From NCBI GenBank assembly GCA_025399215.1, contig MU621111.1, positions 52,948-116,947 of the forward strand: DNA of 64,000 nt, written 5' to 3'. The position numbers and the translations under genes are program-made. Source of the DNA: Globomyces pollinis-pini. Its lineage: Eukaryota > Chytridiomycota > Chytridiomycetes > Rhizophydiales > Globomycetaceae. Below, one piece after another: positions 3,974 to 60,752 of the stretch (positions within the stretch are counted from its first letter, which is position 1; every line of letters begins with the position of its first letter). Under the pieces are notes generated by a model. That model searched no databases and had not been told where the DNA came from. It saw only the letters and a program-made list of their open reading frames with translations.

Positions 3974-4077
3974 AGATTTTGTATTTATCATCTTTGCTCA
4001 CGAAAATTTCCATCATAAGTAATTGAAAAATGTGTAATGAAATAAAATATCAAGTCTTAACGTATATTTTTTAATAA

Positions 4078-5326
4078 TTAATTGGGATCCAAATTCATGA
4101 CAGATAATTCAGCCTTAAGATGTTTACACTTATTGATCAAAACATCAATAGCTTCTTCAAAAAGAACGTTTGGAGATAACGCACAAGTGGATTCAATAGA
4201 AACTAAAAATGAATACAAATAAAATTACAAATAAAATGATCCCGAACTCGAGTGAGTCGAACTTTATCTTGAAATTCTTTGTAACGCAAGCATTCTCTAC
4301 TAGCAGTGTCTTTACGTGGATTTGCAACAACTGCTACTTCCTCTTTTCCTTGCTTTTCCACTTCGATTGTACCTGGTGGGAAACACTTGGCAAATTTGTG
4401 GGCATCTGCTCCGGTAATTGGTTTCAGTATTTGTATATCTGGTAAAAGTCTGTATGAAGCAGTTCCTTAAAATTAGAGCACATAGAGTAAAATACCAACT
4501 GGAGACCATTTGGCATGCTCTTTACCAATTCCTTTAATACAATGTATAACTGCATCGATTTCCTAAAAGTATAAGCTGAAGGTTGATAAATACTTGGCCA
4601 GGACGTAGTTTGGCGATCAAAATATCATCATATAACGGTTTGATTGGCTTCTTTGCAAAACGCTCGGCTTGCTCTCCCTGAGGGACCCAAACCAATGAAC
4701 TAGAGAATACTTATCTATTAGTCAAGATAAAATACCTGAGCTGTTACAATACATGGCTTTTGGGTCAACTTCTGTAATACTTGCAGCAGGATTGAATGTA
4801 CATTTAGCTTGTAATGCAAAAACAATGGTGTCAATATCCGTTGCAGTTTGACCATCTATGTTTAAAATATGAATGGATACCTCCATTGCGATAGACAAAT
4901 TCTCTAGGATCGACATCAATTGGTATTAAACCCAATCTTTGAGCAAGAATTTCATCCCCAAGAATACTTGAATTATTGTCGTAGTAAATAGTTTCAATCG
5001 CCATTGTCGGAATCTAATATAAATACAAGTTCAATATTTTACTTCAGATATTAAAATCCGACGAAATGCGTTAGCAATAGAAGCATCCACTCCGATTAAA
5101 TCAAATTGCATAGTATCCTTTTCTAAAGATCCAATAACAACATCAAAATTCTAAACATCAAATTTTAAAAAAAATTGTACTTGTTGAAATGTATCCAAGT
5201 TCCAACTTAAATCTTCATTTGGGTACATGTGTGGAAAATCTGTGCTGGATACCTTCCATTAGGTCAATATCTTACATGAGAAACATGATCGTCATGTAAT
5301 AATACTCTTGTTCTCATTAACGACAT
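4078..5326 (-). CDS. RPC40: RNA polymerase I and III subunit RPAC1 (AC40)
   Basis: Alpha-like assembly subunit shared by RNA polymerases I and III. Nine exons give 342 residues, close to yeast AC40. Diagnostic blocks are [16 protein letters not shown] near the N-terminus, [14 protein letters not shown] (alpha-type dimerisation motif), the [13 protein letters not shown] block and [13 protein letters not shown]. Introns are 5253-5275 (23 nt), 5151-5180, 5014-5042, 4856-4880, 4710-4735, 4563-4593, 4466-4495 and 4203-4228. The 4710-4735 junction was fixed by frame: only the ATAAG acceptor restores the conserved [11 protein letters not shown]. The start is at the first ATG, four codons before a second one. 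Confidence 0.95.
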
Positions 5327-43326: not shown

Positions 43327-44256
43327 TTACAATTGAGCGTGGTTATGATGAGCATCTTTACAGCCAGAATTGCACTTGAATTGAGAGTGAGTTTCTTCAT
43401 CGATTTCAGCTACCGATTCAAATTTGTTGCTTGCTTGATTGTAAGCGGATAGTGTACCGTTTTCAAAGTCAAAGTACCATCCAGATAATGTCAATTTGTT
43501 TTCCTTTAATCTGGACATGACCCATGGGTAAGTGGTCAGATTTTCGAGTGAACATAAGATGGATGCTTCCTCTAATCATATTAGATAATTCTATTCATTT
43601 CTTACCACAAGCTCGGTTTTGGACTTCAACCGGTTGGTCTGCAAAGGCTTTCAAAGTCTTATCTTTGGCTCTTTGTGCAATACTAACCCAAGGTCCTACA
43701 AAATCAAAGTCTCCAGTTGCTCCGCTCATTAATCCAGCAATACCTCCACATTTAGAGTGTCCCATTACAACAATATTTTCCACATTCAATGCTCGAACAG
43801 CATATTCTAAAGCTGAAGCGGTACCGTGGTACCCAGCATCAAGTTCATAAGGAGCCACTAGATTAGCGACGTTACGTACAACAAAGAAATCACCAGGATC
43901 ACAATCAGTAATGATAGCTGGATCAACTCTGGAATCGGAACATCCAATCAAGATACTCTTTGGAGCTTGCGAGTTCTTCAGTGATTCGAATAATTCCTTG
44001 TTTTCACTGAAGTATTTGTTTTTGAATCTTAAATGTCCATTGGCAAATTTGGTGTCTACCATTCCAGTAAGACTTGAGTTTACAATATCTTTTTTGGAAG
44101 CAAGTACTGCAGGTCAGAAGAAGATCTAAACTTACCAGCATTTACATTGGCAGTGTTGTGAAGTTTCATGGATCTTGGCATGTTGGAGTTGAAGCAAGAG
44201 ACACTTCGGCCAGCCATGGACATGGAGCTTTTCACGGTAGTTTGAAGAAATCGCAT
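43327..44256 (-). CDS. mitochondrial beta-carbonic anhydrase (copy 1)
   Basis: Hydrates CO2 to bicarbonate. 288 residues, introns 44107-44135 (29 nt) and 43572-43605 (34). N-terminal presequence from MRFLQTTVKSSM, rich in Ser/Met/Arg/Asn without acids, indicates mitochondria. Beta-class zinc site: Cys and Asp/Arg dyad in IGCSDSRVDPAI, His and Cys in MGHSKCGGIAG. Conserved SMLYTYPWV-like C-terminal part is SLENLTTYPWVMSR, followed by LTLSGWYFDFENG and a tail with KCNSGCKDAHHNH. The start at 44256 is preferred over ATG 44310 because a TATA box (44295-44301) lies between them. Confidence 0.95.
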
Positions 44257-44753: not shown

Positions 44754-46506
44754 TTAAATTGAGACAAAAAGAAAACATCCATAGATGGCTAGATGAACAA
44801 AGTGTCGTACAGAGCTTGATTTCACGTCATATCCATCCTTAGATGATTCACCATAAGTGGATCCACCTTGGTTATATTGTCCAGCATTACTATTGCCAGA
44901 TTGGTTATTGGAGCCATTGCTGTTTCCACTGCCACTTTGGTTGCCATTATTTCCGTTGTTATTACCACCTTGGTTACCATTGTTTCCGTTGCCATTTGTA
45001 GGCTGTGGTCCATTGGTAGTCACAGTCGTAGGTTCTGGATCGACACCTCCTTCTTCGATCAAATTCTTTTGAACATCAATCTTGAGATGAATGGCAGACA
45101 TTAAATTCTTATGGCGAGAGTTGAGCATCTTTTGAAATGAAATACTGTATTGATCAAAGAATTTTTGTTGATCTTCGGCATAAAGTTTGACCAATGGAAT
45201 TAATTCAGGATCTTTCATGATTCCACAATCAATGTTTAGAATACATTTGCCTTTCATCATGTTCTTGAAAATATCATTGTCAAACACTCCTGGTGTGTTG
45301 TCAAATGGTTCAAACTTCTTCTTGGTTGCATGTGGAGATATTTTTTGATGAACACCACTAATTTAATGAGTTTTAAGTATATTTACCCCATAGAATGCGA
45401 TCCAGTGACCAACACAACTATATCTTCGTTATTAAATCCCAACTGCTGAAGACGTGCCTTCATTTTACTGTATGAATCAGTACTATCATCTGGAATTCTT
45501 CCTTCAGGGCCAACAGGAGTAGCTACATCTTCACGTCCAACTCTAAATGGCATAGCTGGTCCACCACAATGTGTAACAGTGAGATGACCTGCCAAAGCGA
45601 TAATATCAGAACGGGAGTGGTTGTAGAATGTTGGAGGAACAAATTGAGTTGCAATTGAAGCTCCAAGGCCAAAGTTTTCCTTGTTTTCTAGAAAGAATGG
45701 AGTCGATCCATCACCAAATGGGTACGTTTCATTAAGTGGATCCCATAAACCGGCGTCGTGGAATGAACCGCGAATCCATAAAGCGGCCAAGTTGACAGAT
45801 GGAGCATCCTCTGGCATATGACTTGGATCTTGATTACAACCACCTGGAATACTGATATGCTCAACGAGAGAATCGGCGAGACTTTGGGTGCTCTTGAATT
45901 TCGAATTGGTGGGTTTTGGAGTTTCAGAGGTTGTGGTCACAGTTTTAGTAGAATCAACTTGAGTAATAGTAGATGTTGGTCCAACTGACACTGATGTTGT
46001 GATGTCCACCGGAGCAGGATTAACATCGTATGTGAAATCGGTACATTGGTAGATATCAAATGCCTTGGTTCCTCGTTTTGGATCTTCTTTTTGATGGCAA
46101 ATCACTTGAATGGTGAATGGATCACCCTTTTTCAATCCAGGAACTTTCTTGATATCGAATGGAACTTTGTATGTCTTTCCTTGCTTGGCACCTGCAAGCT
46201 CGCCAACCTTGTAAGGGAATGTCTTTGGATTATCACCAACACCAACGTAAATATCATTGTCTCCATTCCAGAAAAAGAAGAGTTCAATTTCGCCATCTAT
46301 AGATTAGAAGAAGAGACTGATATACTTGATTCGGAGTATGCAGCTCGGGGTACATTTGGCACAAGTCCATCATATCCACAAGGACCAACCTTTTGACCTT
46401 CCATGGCTCCAGGAGCATCTGGATTACCACGACCAGCAGGAACAGTGATCAGGAAATGACTTTTCACCAAAGAGCATAAACCAAAGATTGGTAACAACAA
46501 TTTCAT
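44754..46506 (-). CDS. secreted fusion: BIM1-like (LPMO-like X325) domain + haem peroxidase, GPI-anchored
   Basis: 564 residues, introns 46297-46325 and 45358-45386 (29 nt each). Signal peptide MKLLLPIFGLCSLVKS leaves an N-terminal His (HFLITVPAGRGNPDAP), as required for copper binding in LPMO-like BIM1/CBI1 proteins. The domain continues with VGPCGYDG, FFFWNGDNDIYVGVGD, ICHQKEDP and YQCTDFTYD. After a Thr/Ser linker comes a class II-like haem peroxidase: distal Arg/His in IRGSFHDAG, LAGHLTVTHCGGPAMPF, GREDVATPVGPEGRIPDD, proximal His in VTGSHSMG, and FDNTPGVFDNDIF. An Asn/Gly-rich linker ends in a hydrophobic C-terminus without a cytosolic tail, typical of a GPI signal. Each part is recognised; the combined activity is inference. 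Confidence 0.85.
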
Positions 46507-46593
46507 TTGTATTGTATTTTTAATATTTTGAAAGAGTGATTTGTGCTCTTATAAATGAAATTTGTAACAGTTTGAGTCATTTCATGACCCGAC

Positions 46594-46797
46594 CGCAAAA
46601 AAGGCTCCCTTTGGCAACGCCACTTTCTTTTTTTAGAAATTGATTGAGGGTCTATTGCTGTTAAAACCATAGCATTCCAAAGACTGAAACGTTACAAAAT
46701 CTTTTAAAAAATGTCTTTTTCGAACACTCCAATTGAGTTTCAATTAAATATGAAGTGGAGCAATCAAAGAAAAAAGGTGCTGTCGCAAAAAAGCCTC
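46594..46797 (+). promoter_or_regulatory. divergent promoter with repeated CGCAAAAAAGSCTC element
   Basis: Within the 396-bp region between two divergent BIM1-domain genes, CGCAAAAAAGGCTC (46594-46607) and CGCAAAAAAGCCTC (46784-46797) form a direct repeat with one mismatch, one copy nearer each start codon. TTATAA-like sequence precedes both genes. A shared regulator binding site is plausible, untested. Confidence 0.4.
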
Positions 46798-46902
46798 AAA
46801 ATAACCACAGTGGCTTAGCTGTTCCTAATTGGTAACTTGTGTTTTATGGATGGTCGCACATTTGACTCATAAAAACAGCGACTTTAGAATCAAAGAAGAT
46901 AG

Positions 46903-47817
46903 ATGATGAAAGTCGTACTTGGAGTCCTTGCTGTCGGAGCTTATGCTAGAATTGATATGTTGGAACCTAAACCACGAGTCCCAATGGGTGATCGAACAAC
47001 GGCACAACAAGTTAACTTGTGTGGTGGTGAACCAATAGATGTTGAACTGCCATCTAACCCAAGAGTCAAATTCTCAACACTTGGTAAGATCACAAGGATT
47101 AATTAACGTGAAGGTAATGCCGTGACTTTCAAGACCTATGATAATACCAAACGTTGTAACTTTTTCTTGGCTGTTGGGGACAAACCTGATTTTGATCCAA
47201 TATCACTTTATGATGCGGCACAATCTTTAGAGAATTTGAAAGCTGGTGGTACTAATAAGGTTGTCTTAGATAAGATTAGCGCGGTACCAGAATGGGTTGT
47301 GGGTGCTACTGGAACTCTTCAAATTGAATGTATTGAGGCTAGTAGAGGAAATCCAATTACTCATCAATGTGTTGATTTGGTGTTTGATGACGTTAACTCT
47401 ACTCCATCTTCAACTACTACTGTTGTTTCAACCACTTCCACCACTGTTGCTTCTACCACTACTGTCCCTGCAACTTCTGCCATAACTGATACTACTATTA
47501 GTATCTCTCTTTCTTCTACTGACGCTATCACTTCTGCAACCACAACCACTACTGAAGCAATCCAACCAACACTTATTGAATCAACCACCACTGCTGTGTC
47601 TTCCACTGGTTCAGTCGTCCCAACTGAAGCTACCACTATCGCGGTCACCACCACTAAACAATCTGACACGAAACCAACGTCAGCAGAAAAAGAGGACAAT
47701 AGATATTCCAAAACCGGGGATAAACCCTACAAAAACACTAATGGCTATAGTGACATTGAAAATTCTGCTTCCAAGCTCAATTCCATGGCTAGTCTTTTGA
47801 TGTTTTTATTCATTTAG
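46903..47817 (+). CDS. GPI-anchored BIM1-like surface protein lacking the N-terminal His
   Basis: 294 residues, one 30-nt intron (47084-47113). A hydrophobic signal peptide (about 1-16) is followed by RIDMLEPKPRVPMGDR, NLCGGEP and, further on, CNFFLAVGDKPDF, ATGTLQIECIEASRG and HQCVDLVFDD, which align in order with the BIM1-like domain of the divergent gene (PCG, GVGDNPK, IQVICHQKE, YQCTDF). The residue after the predicted cleavage site is Arg or Ile instead of His, so the copper brace seems lost. A Thr/Ser-rich stalk (about 125-250) and a hydrophobic C-terminus (SMASLLMFLFI) indicate a GPI-anchored cell-surface protein. Start at the first of two adjacent ATGs. Confidence 0.75.
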
Positions 47818-48081: not shown

Positions 48082-49088
48082 CTATGCAGAGGAAGCAGCG
48101 GATTTATGTGAATGTTGATGGTTACAAGTAGAATGCTGGGCTTTAATCTTTTCAATAACGTCTGCATGAGCTTCAATTTCCTCGATAGGTTCAAAGCTGG
48201 CTGTTTCTGGATTGAAGGCCAACAAATTTCCGGTCTCGAAATCAAAGTACCATCCAGAAAGTGTTAAAGAATTATCTTGCAGTTTGGACATAATCCATGG
48301 GTACGTTGTTAGATTTTCAAGCGAACATAAGATTGAAGCTTCCTCTAAGCTATTAGATTCCTGATATTGATTTTACCACATGCTCGGTTTTGTACTTCTT
48401 CTGATTGGTCACCGAAATATTGTAGAGTCTTTTCTTTGGCACGCTTAGCAATATTTACCCAAGGTCCAACAAAGTCAAAATCTCCAGTTGCACCACTCAT
48501 TAATCCTGCAATACCACCACATCTAATGTTTAATATACCAATATCTCTACTTTGAATGTCCCAAAACAATAATATTTTCAACTTTCAATGCTCGAACAGC
48601 ATATTCCAAAGCTGAAGCAGTACCGTGATAACCAGCATCAAGTTGATAAGGAGCAACCAAATTGGCAACGTTACGGACAACAAAGAAATCTCCAGGAGCG
48701 CAATCAGTGATGATAGCTGGATCGACTCTGGAATCGGAACATCCTATTAAGATACTCTTTGGAGATTGACCCAATTTCAAAGAGTTAAAAAGTTCTTTGT
48801 TTTCTGTGAAGTACTTATGTTTGAATCGTAAATGACCATCAGCAAATTTTGAATGTACAACTGAGAGTCAACATAAAAGACAGTAAACCTCTAGTGAGAC
48901 TTGATAGAACGACGCTATTAGAATCTTGAGAGATATTTAAAGCAGTATCAGCAACTAATCAAATGTTAAGATATGGTAAAGCTACCAGCATGAGGATTTG
49001 GAGTATTATGAATGAATTTCCAAGCTGCTTTTGATTGATTCCAACCAAAAACTGAAGTTAATCGAGAGGATGCTTTGATAGTGTTCAT
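48082..49088 (-). CDS. mitochondrial beta-carbonic anhydrase (copy 2)
   Basis: 295 residues in five exons (introns 48955-48985, 48861-48888, 48523-48550, 48345-48376). Presequence MNTIKASSRLTSVFGW is basic and acid-free. Active site: IGCSDSRVDPAI and LGHSKCGGIAG, the latter split by an intron inside the Lys codon. The C-terminal segment mirrors copy 1 (LTLSGWYFDFETGNLLAF), but the tail differs (STCNHQHSHKS). It shares with copy 1 the intron after the RAC codons and the first intron in the presequence region, and has two extra introns. Confidence 0.95.
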
Positions 49089-53677: not shown

Positions 53678-55528
53678 TTAAGCACTTTTGCCTCTGCTAG
53701 ATCGACGAGATGGAAGAGGTAATTTGGACGCTGAATCACCTTGATCCTTTACTTTACCGTCTGCCTTTGGAGTTTTTACCGGTGTTGCCTTTGATTTCTT
53801 GCTAACCTTATTTTGGTTAGTTTTAGGAGTACTGAGCTTTTCTTCTAGCTTGTTTTGCACTGGGGTAGCCTTGGTGCTAGATCTTGTCTCTCTAACTGGT
53901 GTGTCTTTCTTAGCAGGTGCTTCCTTCTTTGCAGGCGTTTCTTTCTTAGCTGGTGTTTCCTTCTTTGCTGGTGTTTCTTTCTTAGCAGGAGTTTCTTTCT
54001 TTGCCGGTGTTTCCTTCTTAGCAGGAGTTTCTTTCTTTGCCGGTGTTTCCTTCTTAGCAGGAGTTTCTTTCTTCGCCGGTGTTTCCTTCTTAGCTGGCGC
54101 TTCTTTTTTTGCCGGAGTTTCCTTCTTAGATGGTGCTTCCTTCTTTGCTGGAGCTTCCTTTTTCGCAGGGGTTTCTTTCTTTGCTGGAGCTTCTTTCTTT
54201 GCTGGCGTTTCTTTCTTAGCTGGGCTTTTCGGGATTACGGCTTCGACTTTCTCAGCGACTTCTTTTTTTGCTGGAGTACTCTTCTTGGCAGGAGTAGATT
54301 TCTTAGCAGAAGATTCTTTCACATTTGGAGTAGCAGATTCATTCTTCTTTTTGGCTGGAGTAGGTTTCGATTGCTGTACATCTTTTTTCGGGGTCGAGTC
54401 GGTTTTTTGAGACCGAGTTACACGTGGGGATTCTAACAAATCATCAGTTTCATTTTCCATTGCGATTTTCTTGCTTCGAGTATTCTTAGCACTCTCTCCT
54501 TCATTCTTGTCCTTGTCTTGGGCAACTGAGGTAGTGGCGGGGTTCTTTTTCACAGATTTAGTAGATGCCTTCTCTTTCGCATCAGCTTTCCCAGCAGATT
54601 TCTTTGGAGACTCTTTATTGTTATTCACAGGTCCCGAATTGCCAGACTCCGAAGTTTTAACCTTTTTGGCGGCTTGACTATCGGATTCATCAGTTGATCG
54701 TTTCTTGGGAGAAGATTTGGCAGCCTCCTTAACAGCATGGAATTCATAATCAATTCCTACCTCTTTTAACTTTTTATTCTTTGTTGATTCAGCATTCACC
54801 ATACGTGTTTTTCGTCTTTCGAATTGCTCTGGAGTTTTTTCCTATGGTTAAGCATACAAAACATACTTTATTATGAATTGCTTTTTGAATTTTATGGGTA
54901 GGTACGATTTTAAATGGCTTATTTGCATTTTTGAACACATTCTCATGCAATTTGTTTGCATCTACCACTTGGCCTATAAAGATTGAGATTTCATGGTGTA
55001 ATTACATTTTAAAAGGTGATTGGCCAACAAATAATTGTTCATTGTTTCAGCTACAATCTTTGCTACTTGATCGTTTTCAAATTCAATGAAGGCATAATGC
55101 TTGGAAGCACCAGTTTTCTTATTTCTAGATAATCGTAATCTTGAGACCGTCCCAAATTGAGAAAAATAAGCTTTCATTTCTTGTTCGTAAAAGCCGTGGG
55201 GAATACGACCAAGGTAAACCACACCTGGCTTTTCGGAAGGTTTGGAAACGGTCTTCACTTTACGCTTTAGAGCCACCGTATCTGATTTTGTAAGAATTTC
55301 AGGGGTGTTTGTGAGATTGATAGAGTCACCTTCCATAGGTTCTTCCATAGTTACATCCTGGCCATCTTCATCTGAACTTTCCACATCGCTACTCTCAGAA
55401 ATACCTGCTAAAGCAGCGCGAAGCTCTGTGTCTGACAATTGATCTTCATCTACAGGGAGCTTGATTTCGTCTTCTTCTTTCAAGGTTTTTTGTTCCTTTA
55501 TCACTTTTTTGTTTGTTTGGACTTTCAT
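53678..55528 (-). CDS. NIFK/Nop15-like nucleolar RRM protein with PAKKE-repeat tail
   Basis: 597 residues, introns 54974-55005 (32 nt) and 54842-54866 (25). Acidic N-terminus, then one RRM with RNP2 VVYLGRIP and RNP1 KHYAFIEF, followed by the NIFK-type extension [19 protein letters not shown] and VGIDYEF. This matches ribosome-biogenesis proteins NIFK/Nop15 (60S maturation). The unusual C-terminal half is Lys-rich and holds about 18 six-residue PAKKE units between Ser/Thr/Pro/Lys-rich flanks, resembling a histone H1 tail. Normal family members end soon after the IDY motif. Confidence 0.87.
53905..54225 (-). repeat. 18-bp coding minisatellite (T/A-P-A-K-K-E units)
   Basis: About 18 tandem 18-bp units within the nucleolar RRM protein, encoding TPAKKE or APAKKE with a few variants ([12 protein letters not shown]). 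Several synonymous variants alternate in blocks, as expected from unequal exchange. Units near the middle are the most uniform. Confidence 0.9.
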
Positions 55529-59810: not shown

Positions 59811-60752
59811 ATGATAGAGAAATTGGATAAATTTTTATCAGGATATAAACGATTTCATAAAGTAAATGTCAATCTATGATTAATATTATAGAATTACTTT
59901 TGTGAAAATCAATTACTATTTAAAACATTACAAACCGGACAGGCACCCAAAACTGTTTTGATTGGATGTTGCGATTCAAGGTATCCCCATCATGTCCTAA
60001 CGACGCGTAAAGAGTCGATCCGGCAATAATAACCGATTGTGATCCTGGTGACATATTTGTTGTTCGTAACGTGGCCAATTTGGTTGCACCACATAAAGTT
60101 GATTTCGGATATCATGGTACCGCTTCAGCGTTAGAATATGCAGTACGTGTTCTACAAGTCGAAAATATCATTATTTTGGGACATTCACATTGTGGAGGCA
60201 TTGAATTGTTGATGCAAAGTGATGATGCTCCAGAATTTGAAGTAATTTTTTCAACGTGTCTTAATGTTTAGTATTTAGGACATTGGATGAGTATGGGGAA
60301 AGCAGTAAGTTATTTGCAATTAAATTTTTAGGCCAAAGATAAAACTTTAAGGTGCAGCATTTTAAAGATGGTTAACGGTATATAGGTTCTATTCTGATCA
60401 ACCACGCGATGTTCAAAACCGAGCTTGTGGTAATAATTCTCTTTGCTGATATATAGAGAAAGCATCGATTCTACAATCTTTGGAAAATTGCGTCAGCTAC
60501 CCTTGGATTCATGGTGATTGACCTTCATTAATTTTGTAGAAAAATTGAAAGATGGATCATTGAGTTTAACTGGATGGTAAATTGTCGCTTTTAAATGATT
60601 TTCATAGGTACTTTGATTTTGATACAGGAAAATTATTGGGATACAATTCAGAGAAAAGTACATTCGAATCTTTAGATACTGACGAGTGCAATATAATAGA
60701 TCGGATAAAAGATCAAGCGACCCGTAATAGTCTCTCGCAGCCTTCTCAGTAA
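59811..60752 (+). CDS. beta-carbonic anhydrase (copy 3), intron-rich, no presequence
   Basis: 234 residues in nine exons; introns 59862-59891, 59981-60012, 60242-60271, 60305-60331, 60352-60385, 60430-60456, 60514-60539 and 60577-60607 (26-34 nt) restore a full frame that otherwise looks heavily broken. Zinc site: IGCCDSRVDPAI (Ser of the usual CSDSR replaced by Cys) and LGHSHCGGIE. The protein begins MIEKLDKFLSGYKRF, acidic and without a targeting leader, so it is probably cytosolic. It shares the RAC/intron position with the two mitochondrial copies and a SLSLTGWYFDFDTG-like tail with LTGW-YFDFDTGKLLGY. Confidence 0.88.

Follow-up and report, generated by a model that had tools for sequence, protein, structure and literature searches.

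We have found that a single gene of Globomyces pollinis-pini (Rhizophydiales, Chytridiomycota) encodes a BIM1/X325-like domain and a haem peroxidase in one chain, and that the same pair recurs in eight other proteins. This BIM1-peroxidase design is real and conserved, and it is apparently undescribed. Actually, full-text literature searches, which covered few subscription journals, returned no description of a BIM1/X325-peroxidase architecture, in agreement with what the initial annotation of this DNA had supposed. Since the pair is visible in the precomputed domain lists of four database proteins, it should be regarded as undescribed as far as searched, rather than unseen. Copper sites of the histidine-brace kind have been set beside haem as alternatives used by nature (PMC10952591), and here one domain of each kind, a histidine-brace copper-type and a haem domain, is combined in one chain.

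Gene structure and detection of the two domains

The gene occupies positions 44754-46506 on the minus strand of the window, i.e., the whole stretch of 64,000 nucleotides analysed, which is part of contig C22 in a genome of 18.5 Mb and 459 contigs. It has three exons and two introns, and its spliced translation is a protein of 564 residues. Exon 1 (46326..46506) encodes a signal peptide and the start of the BIM1-like domain; exon 2 (45387..46296) is a single open frame that covers the bulk of the BIM1-like domain, a Thr/Ser linker, and the peroxidase up to its proximal His; exon 3 (44754..45357) encodes the remaining peroxidase, an Asn/Gly-rich linker, a hydrophobic C-terminus, and the stop. 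Intron 1 (46297..46325, GTATAT...CTATAG) and intron 2 (45358..45386, GTAAAT...AATTAG) are each 29 nt long and of the GT-AG type, and both splices match a deposited protein (P0001), 'heme peroxidase [Globomyces pollinis-pini]', which is 100% identical to the window protein over its full length. The three-exon chain of 564 residues proposed initially is thus reproduced.

Along the chain, all on the minus strand, come the signal peptide (residues 1-16, 46459-46506, assigned by inspection), the BIM1-like domain (residues 17-152, 46022..46458 with intron 1 inside, delimited by profile and alignment), the Thr/Ser-rich linker (residues 153-190, 45908..46021, from the sequence and the structure model), the haem peroxidase domain (residues 191-469, 45042..45907 with intron 2 inside, from Pfam, alignment, and the structure model), and the Asn/Gly linker with a C-terminal hydrophobic stretch (residues 470-564, 44757..45041), which is GPI-signal-like on hydropathy.

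The exon 2 frame spans little more than 300 codons; it leads from within the BIM1-like domain across the Thr-rich linker and as far as the proximal His of the peroxidase. That is, the fusion cannot stem from any splice-site choice, and the claim that both domains lie in one chain is upheld by this frame and by the recurrence of the pair elsewhere. BIM1-like genes do stand beside a peroxidase gene in a cluster on contig C401 of the same genome, but a model in which two neighbouring genes were merged by mistake is extremely improbable, and is rejected on the continuous frame and on the recurrence of the pair in eight further proteins, which come from this genome, other genomes, and metagenomes.

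We have found that stock Pfam detects one half of the protein, as it reports the peroxidase (PF00141, E=3.7e-25) and gives no match to the BIM1-like family PF20238 even at E<=10. On the other hand, two fused relatives pass the curated cut-off of PF20238, P0002 with 39.7 bits and P0006 with 47.8 bits, as does a single-domain paralogue from the same genome with 34.6 bits, and residues 1-151 of the window protein share 43–44% identity with two such single-domain paralogues (E 1e-31 to 3e-32). A profile was built from eight single-domain sequences (P0043 and seven from the same genome); it matches the window protein with 97.9 bits (E=6.5e-28, Z set to 24736), while none of 200 shuffled versions matches at E<=10. 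By the test proposed initially, the Pfam miss would count against the fusion, an objection that these matches outweigh: in the window protein, stock Pfam finds the peroxidase and the family profile finds the BIM1 part. Among the 55 proteins found, this profile gives nine matches at E<1e-8, namely eight fused proteins and P0043, itself a training member; the degenerate P0012 is matched at E=0.18, and the remaining 45 give no match at E<=10. With a 13-sequence profile, which adds four fused relatives, P0012 reaches E 5.2e-7. A profile of 15 family members has LaX325 (6IBH) as its first match in the PDB (E=3.5e-8). As stock Pfam overlooks the BIM1-like domain in at least two members (P0001 and P0012), further fusions may hide under plain 'peroxidase' labels.

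Like the X325/BIM1 proteins (Cbi1; PF20238; LaX325 and Cryptococcus Bim1), the window protein shows a signal-peptide-like start followed by His1, an early Cys (PCG in this family), a YQCxD motif towards the end, and a GPI-like tail, in addition to the match with the family profile; LaX325 and Bim1 are described, in the available parts of their reports, without a second enzyme domain, while here a haem peroxidase is attached. LPMOs (AA families) also have an N-terminal His on a secreted beta-rich domain, but no LPMO family was matched in the Pfam scans, and X325/Bim1 proteins are reported not to cleave polysaccharides. NCBIfam gave nothing besides catalase-peroxidase matches far below the cut-off in P0001 and P0006 and one chance-level match in P0001; searches of the window against Rfam and of a plasmid collection gave no match.

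Distribution of the pair in chytrids

Besides the window copy (P0001), the fused proteins are P0002, P0004, P0005, P0006 (Polyrhizophydium stewartii), P0007 (Entophlyctis sp. JEL0112), P0008, P0045 (Gorgonomyces haynaldii, a model that begins inside the BIM1 domain), and the degenerate P0012, all from chytrids or metagenomes. The initial annotation had suggested a search for the pair in other fungi, which thus yields eight more proteins, one of them degenerate. The named hosts are three Rhizophydiales species and one Chytridiales species. As several other chytrids have the same pair, it is a real protein design and no peculiarity of a single genome.

In a tree of 43 peroxidase domains, whose alignment omits 13 of the 55 found proteins (fragments, tandem, merged, and near-duplicate models) and the single-domain P0043, all nine fused proteins fall in one clade of 16 rows with a support of 98/97, so the architecture is no isolated case. 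The clade also contains six proteins whose models lack the BIM1 part (P0009, P0010, P0013, P0014, P0017, and P0024), and P0046, which begins inside the peroxidase and is uninformative on this point. Outside the clade, all 26 ingroup rows lack BIM1, 25 of them judged by profile and one, a gene on contig C8 of the same genome, by its reading frame. This indicates that the peroxidase does not need the BIM1 part, though gene models can miss 5' exons, so that the absence of BIM1 holds for the models.

The simplest reading is that the BIM1 part was gained once, at the root of the clade, and was lost afterwards in Cladochytrium and several Chytridiales, while separate gains are also conceivable. The tree counts six changes, which is too high, as P0045 was scored there without BIM1 despite its partial domain. 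In the BIM1-domain tree (22 rows, with stars on 5 of 19 inner branches), fused proteins are intermixed with single-domain ones, and its poor resolution supports neither a single origin nor multiple ones. A region search for other BIM1 fusions scored 47 candidates and returned four proteins and no new partner domain, but it is weak evidence on other architectures, since it overlooked the known fused P0001, P0005, P0006, and P0007.

Some other arrangements were observed in the family. P0009 (Obelidium) and P0010 (Siphonaria), which belong to the fusion clade and have no BIM1 part, show a signal-peptide-like start running into ...AHGxGLPVPA, like a BIM1 start, which is possibly a scar of domain loss. 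P0003 (Podochytrium sp. JEL0797, 655 aa) has two tandem peroxidase domains in one chain, and P0042 (Siphonaria sp. JEL0065, 613 aa) has a LicD domain ahead of a peroxidase of the same family, though it could be a merged gene model.

Putative copper-site and peroxidase residues

In the window protein, His17 (46456-46458, minus strand, by position mapping), the presumed new N-terminus, comes directly after ...LVKS, which agrees with the claim of a His straight after the signal peptide, the peptide and its cleavage being judged by inspection. Five fused proteins have models that extend into the signal peptide, and four of them (P0001, P0002, P0005, and P0006) keep this His1. In the fifth, the degenerate P0012, it is replaced and the chain reads ...VCQIQF; in P0004, P0007, P0008, and P0045 the position lies outside the gene model. 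On the other hand, the His in the SGH of LaX325, which we take to be the second brace ligand and which fits the profile, corresponds in the profile alignment to Phe69 of the window protein, a column that could shift by about a residue as the MAFFT alignment places LaX325 differently. The same column holds Tyr in P0002, P0004, P0005, P0006, P0007, and P0008 and Glu in P0012, and the model of P0045 does not extend to it; of five single-domain C401 paralogues, three have His there, one has Phe, and one has Tyr. With Phe or Tyr here, unlike in LaX325, the histidine brace would be non-canonical. The copper domain proposed initially is therefore supported in part: His1 is present, but the second-His column is Phe69, and Tyr in six of the nine fused proteins.

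The fused proteins have in addition a conserved Cys-His pair (C127-H128) in the loop where LaX325 carries its Asp. His128 (46094-46096, minus strand, by alignment) and Asp141 are invariant in all nine and in the single-domain P0043. Asp141 is two residues away from the GGD Asp of LaX325, and the loop here, which contains His128, is not Gly-rich; Asp73 and Asp75 lie close to the lost second-His column. The copper ligands of X325 proteins are described as His1, an internal His, and an Asp, which stands on a Gly-rich loop in Bim1 (PMC7529816, PMC10952591), and the Bim1 authors remark on a swap of His and Asp positions between Bim1 and CopC (PMC7529816). A similar swap could have occurred within the fused subfamily. 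In its fullest form, this would give a 'peroxide-guarded copper receptor', conserved across chytrid orders and serving copper uptake under oxidative stress, in which, by a CopC-like swap, the second His has moved to His128 on a loop, with Asp73/Asp75 or Asp141 as its acidic partner; we consider this full form unlikely.

Two AlphaFold models bear on the suggested structure check, with a mixed outcome: the peroxidase domain is modelled, though patchy in the second model with blocks down to 50, but the first 35–40 residues, including His1, have a pLDDT below 50. Confidence is also low over residues 155-186, which suggests that the Thr/Ser linker is probably flexible. The structure-search matches listed for both models are peroxidases only, with LaX325 not among them, and have no bearing on the BIM1 part. 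At the other end, the last 15 residues (550-564) have a mean hydropathy of 2.13 and are preceded by the small residues SSS. This supports the surface-type tail noted before, and a GPI-like tail of this kind would anchor the protein at the cell surface.

The peroxidase half is well conserved. The distal stretch R236-D241 (45755-45772) and the proximal His361 (45395-45397) were placed by alignment on the minus strand, and Arg236, Phe239, His240, His361, Phe382, and Asp390 are unchanged in all nine fused proteins, with Asn268 kept in eight. The claim of complete haem peroxidase motifs is confirmed, while its assignment to a class II type is not, as residues and solved relatives point to a Hybrid B-like enzyme. 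Like Hybrid B (HyBpox), this is a secreted fungal PF00141 protein with a distal Arg-x-x-Phe-His and a proximal His, Phe, and Asp. Its N-terminus is signal-peptide-like, and the organism-named relatives are chytrids, six of them by taxonomy look-up. The proximal Phe382 is found in 41 of 41 aligned family members, where Family I has Trp, and the best solved-structure relatives are ascorbate and cytochrome c peroxidases. Unlike these class I enzymes, the fused proteins are secreted, have the proximal Phe, and carry Ile (eight of nine, Ile370 in the window protein) or Val (one) at the position of the ascorbate-peroxidase Arg172. Classical class II is rejected on residues, and ascorbate peroxidase on Ile370 and Phe382.

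On the other hand, the distal acidic Mn-binding residues reported for Hybrid B were not seen among the 41 aligned members at positions -3 and -7 from the distal Arg, which we take to be the Mn positions by analogy with manganese peroxidase: all 41 have Leu at position -3, while at position -7 there are 36 with Asn, two with Asp (one of them fused), and one each with Ala, Gly, and a gap. Past the peroxidase of the window protein Pfam reports no domain of any kind, and so no C-terminal sugar-binding domain; papers disagree on how general such a domain is in Hybrid B (PMC4232752, PMC5571214). The proximal Phe is given as a Hybrid B criterion, against Trp in Family I (PMC5571214), and Hybrid B enzymes have been reported from chytrids. 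Overall, the peroxidase appears to fit fungal Hybrid B better than classical class II, judged by residues and solved relatives; the tree contains no Dikarya Hybrid B, class II, or class III sequences.

Proposed function and genomic neighbours

The layout is a His-first BIM1/X325-type domain, a flexible Thr/Ser stalk, a Hybrid B-like peroxidase, a second flexible stalk, and a GPI-like tail. From the sequence, we infer copper binding, haem binding, surface anchoring, and a guarding role, and we tentatively favour, at somewhat short of even confidence, a secreted, membrane- or wall-tethered chytrid protein that retains copper. Its BIM1 part would bind copper at the cell surface, and the tethered peroxidase would destroy H2O2 next to the copper site; this would keep copper on a peroxide-labile site and limit Fenton chemistry, so that copper handling could continue under peroxide stress. 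In Cryptococcus, the copper protein Bim1/Cbi1 is reported to be GPI-anchored and to interact with Ctr1 (PMC9258870), and Ctr transporters are encoded in the present genome as well. Stoichiometric H2O2 reportedly releases the copper of Bim1, in which the authors see a proposed off-switch for copper import (PMC7529816). As H2O2 strips the copper of Bim1, an attached peroxidase would remove the stripping agent where it counts, and this reported lability makes the coupling more specific than in the initial annotation, which had suggested a general link between copper capture or redox chemistry and peroxide removal. The meaning of the copper loss has so far only been proposed (PMC7529816), and a 2014 paper called it completely unknown what Hybrid B peroxidases do (PMC4232752); the fusion ties a Bim1-type domain to a Hybrid B-like enzyme, and directly poses the question whether the peroxidase keeps the copper on.

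The main alternative, which we regard as rather unlikely, is that the BIM1 part serves for targeting or as a structural module and holds the peroxidase at the wall, with a degenerate or unused copper site. The Phe/Tyr in the second-His column fits this, as does P0012, the other fusion gene in this genome (7116-8420 of locus L022, C401:1-9999), which counts against guarding: its peroxidase pocket residues are intact while its BIM1 part is heavily eroded and His1 is lost, as if the copper domain had decayed and the enzyme had been kept. It also fits that a diverged BIM1-like gene, transcribed divergently next to the window fusion (46903..47817, plus strand, with a short intron at ~47087-47116 placed by eye), has Arg in place of His1, and that its counterpart in the P0012 cluster (L022 ~4005-5199) has Lys. 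Both have a Thr-rich stalk and a hydrophobic tail; the former matches the single-domain profile weakly (E 0.0012) and gives no Pfam PF20238 match. These two BIM1-like genes, each sharing a contig with one of the fusion genes, are possibly copper-free members. Fusions of Hybrid B peroxidases to sugar-binding domains have been published (PMC4232752, PMC5571214), and the C-terminal carbohydrate-binding/WSC domains of the ascomycete enzymes are believed to play such a wall-holding role; here, unlike in those fusions, the extra domain is N-terminal and BIM1-like. Against a mere module stand the His1 in four of five fused proteins with a complete N-terminus, the His128 and Asp141 in nine of nine, seemingly beyond the need of a passive scaffold, and the report that Bim1 has no recognisable polysaccharide-binding sites (PMC9258870).

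Quite improbable is a redox pair, in which peroxide would be produced at the copper site from O2 and a reductant, and consumed on the spot by the peroxidase, e.g., for wall cross-linking or for attack on pollen or algal phenolics. The pocket is complete, and the Phe for the class I Trp together with the lost Arg172 may suggest donors different from cytochrome c and ascorbate, but purified Bim1 is reported as not redox active, its H2O2 being ascribed to leaked copper (PMC7529816).

Further BIM1-like genes surround these fusions. The C401 cluster holds, within 13.6 kb, at least five single-domain BIM1-like genes together with the degenerate fusion and the gene of the Arg/Lys type. In addition, the fused P0005 and the single-domain P0043 are presumably on one contig of 105200 bases, so there may be a tendency for fused and single BIM1 genes to lie close to each other. 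The whole genome gives 14 six-frame PF20238 matches, some of which are the same genes on the overlapping contigs C106 and C419, and three Ctr matches; additional BIM1-like genes surfaced only with a paralogue query. The intergenic stretch common to the window fusion and its divergent neighbour (46507..46902) carries one TAAGCCACTGTGG site. The 6-mer AGCCAC/GTGGCT, mostly as TGTGGCT, occurs 20 times in the 500 bp upstream of 10 of the 17 BIM1-like genes checked, with sites of divergent pairs counted twice and several of the promoters paralogous (window 46507-46902; L008, L009, L011, L012, L015, and L022), and nine times across the 64-kb window. None of the three Ctr loci has it, nor does the C8 peroxidase locus; thus the promoter motif sought in common between BIM1-like genes and copper transporters was not found at these three Ctr loci, which gives no support to co-regulation with copper import.

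Elsewhere in the window, 53678-54841 is a lysine-rich frame with a long tandem peptide repeat and no Pfam match. Three carbonic anhydrase-like genes also lie around the fusion gene (43595-44113, 48372-48861, and 59829-60431); the first matches Pro_CA, and the other two match the first, in pieces, at 86/82% and 41–71% identity.
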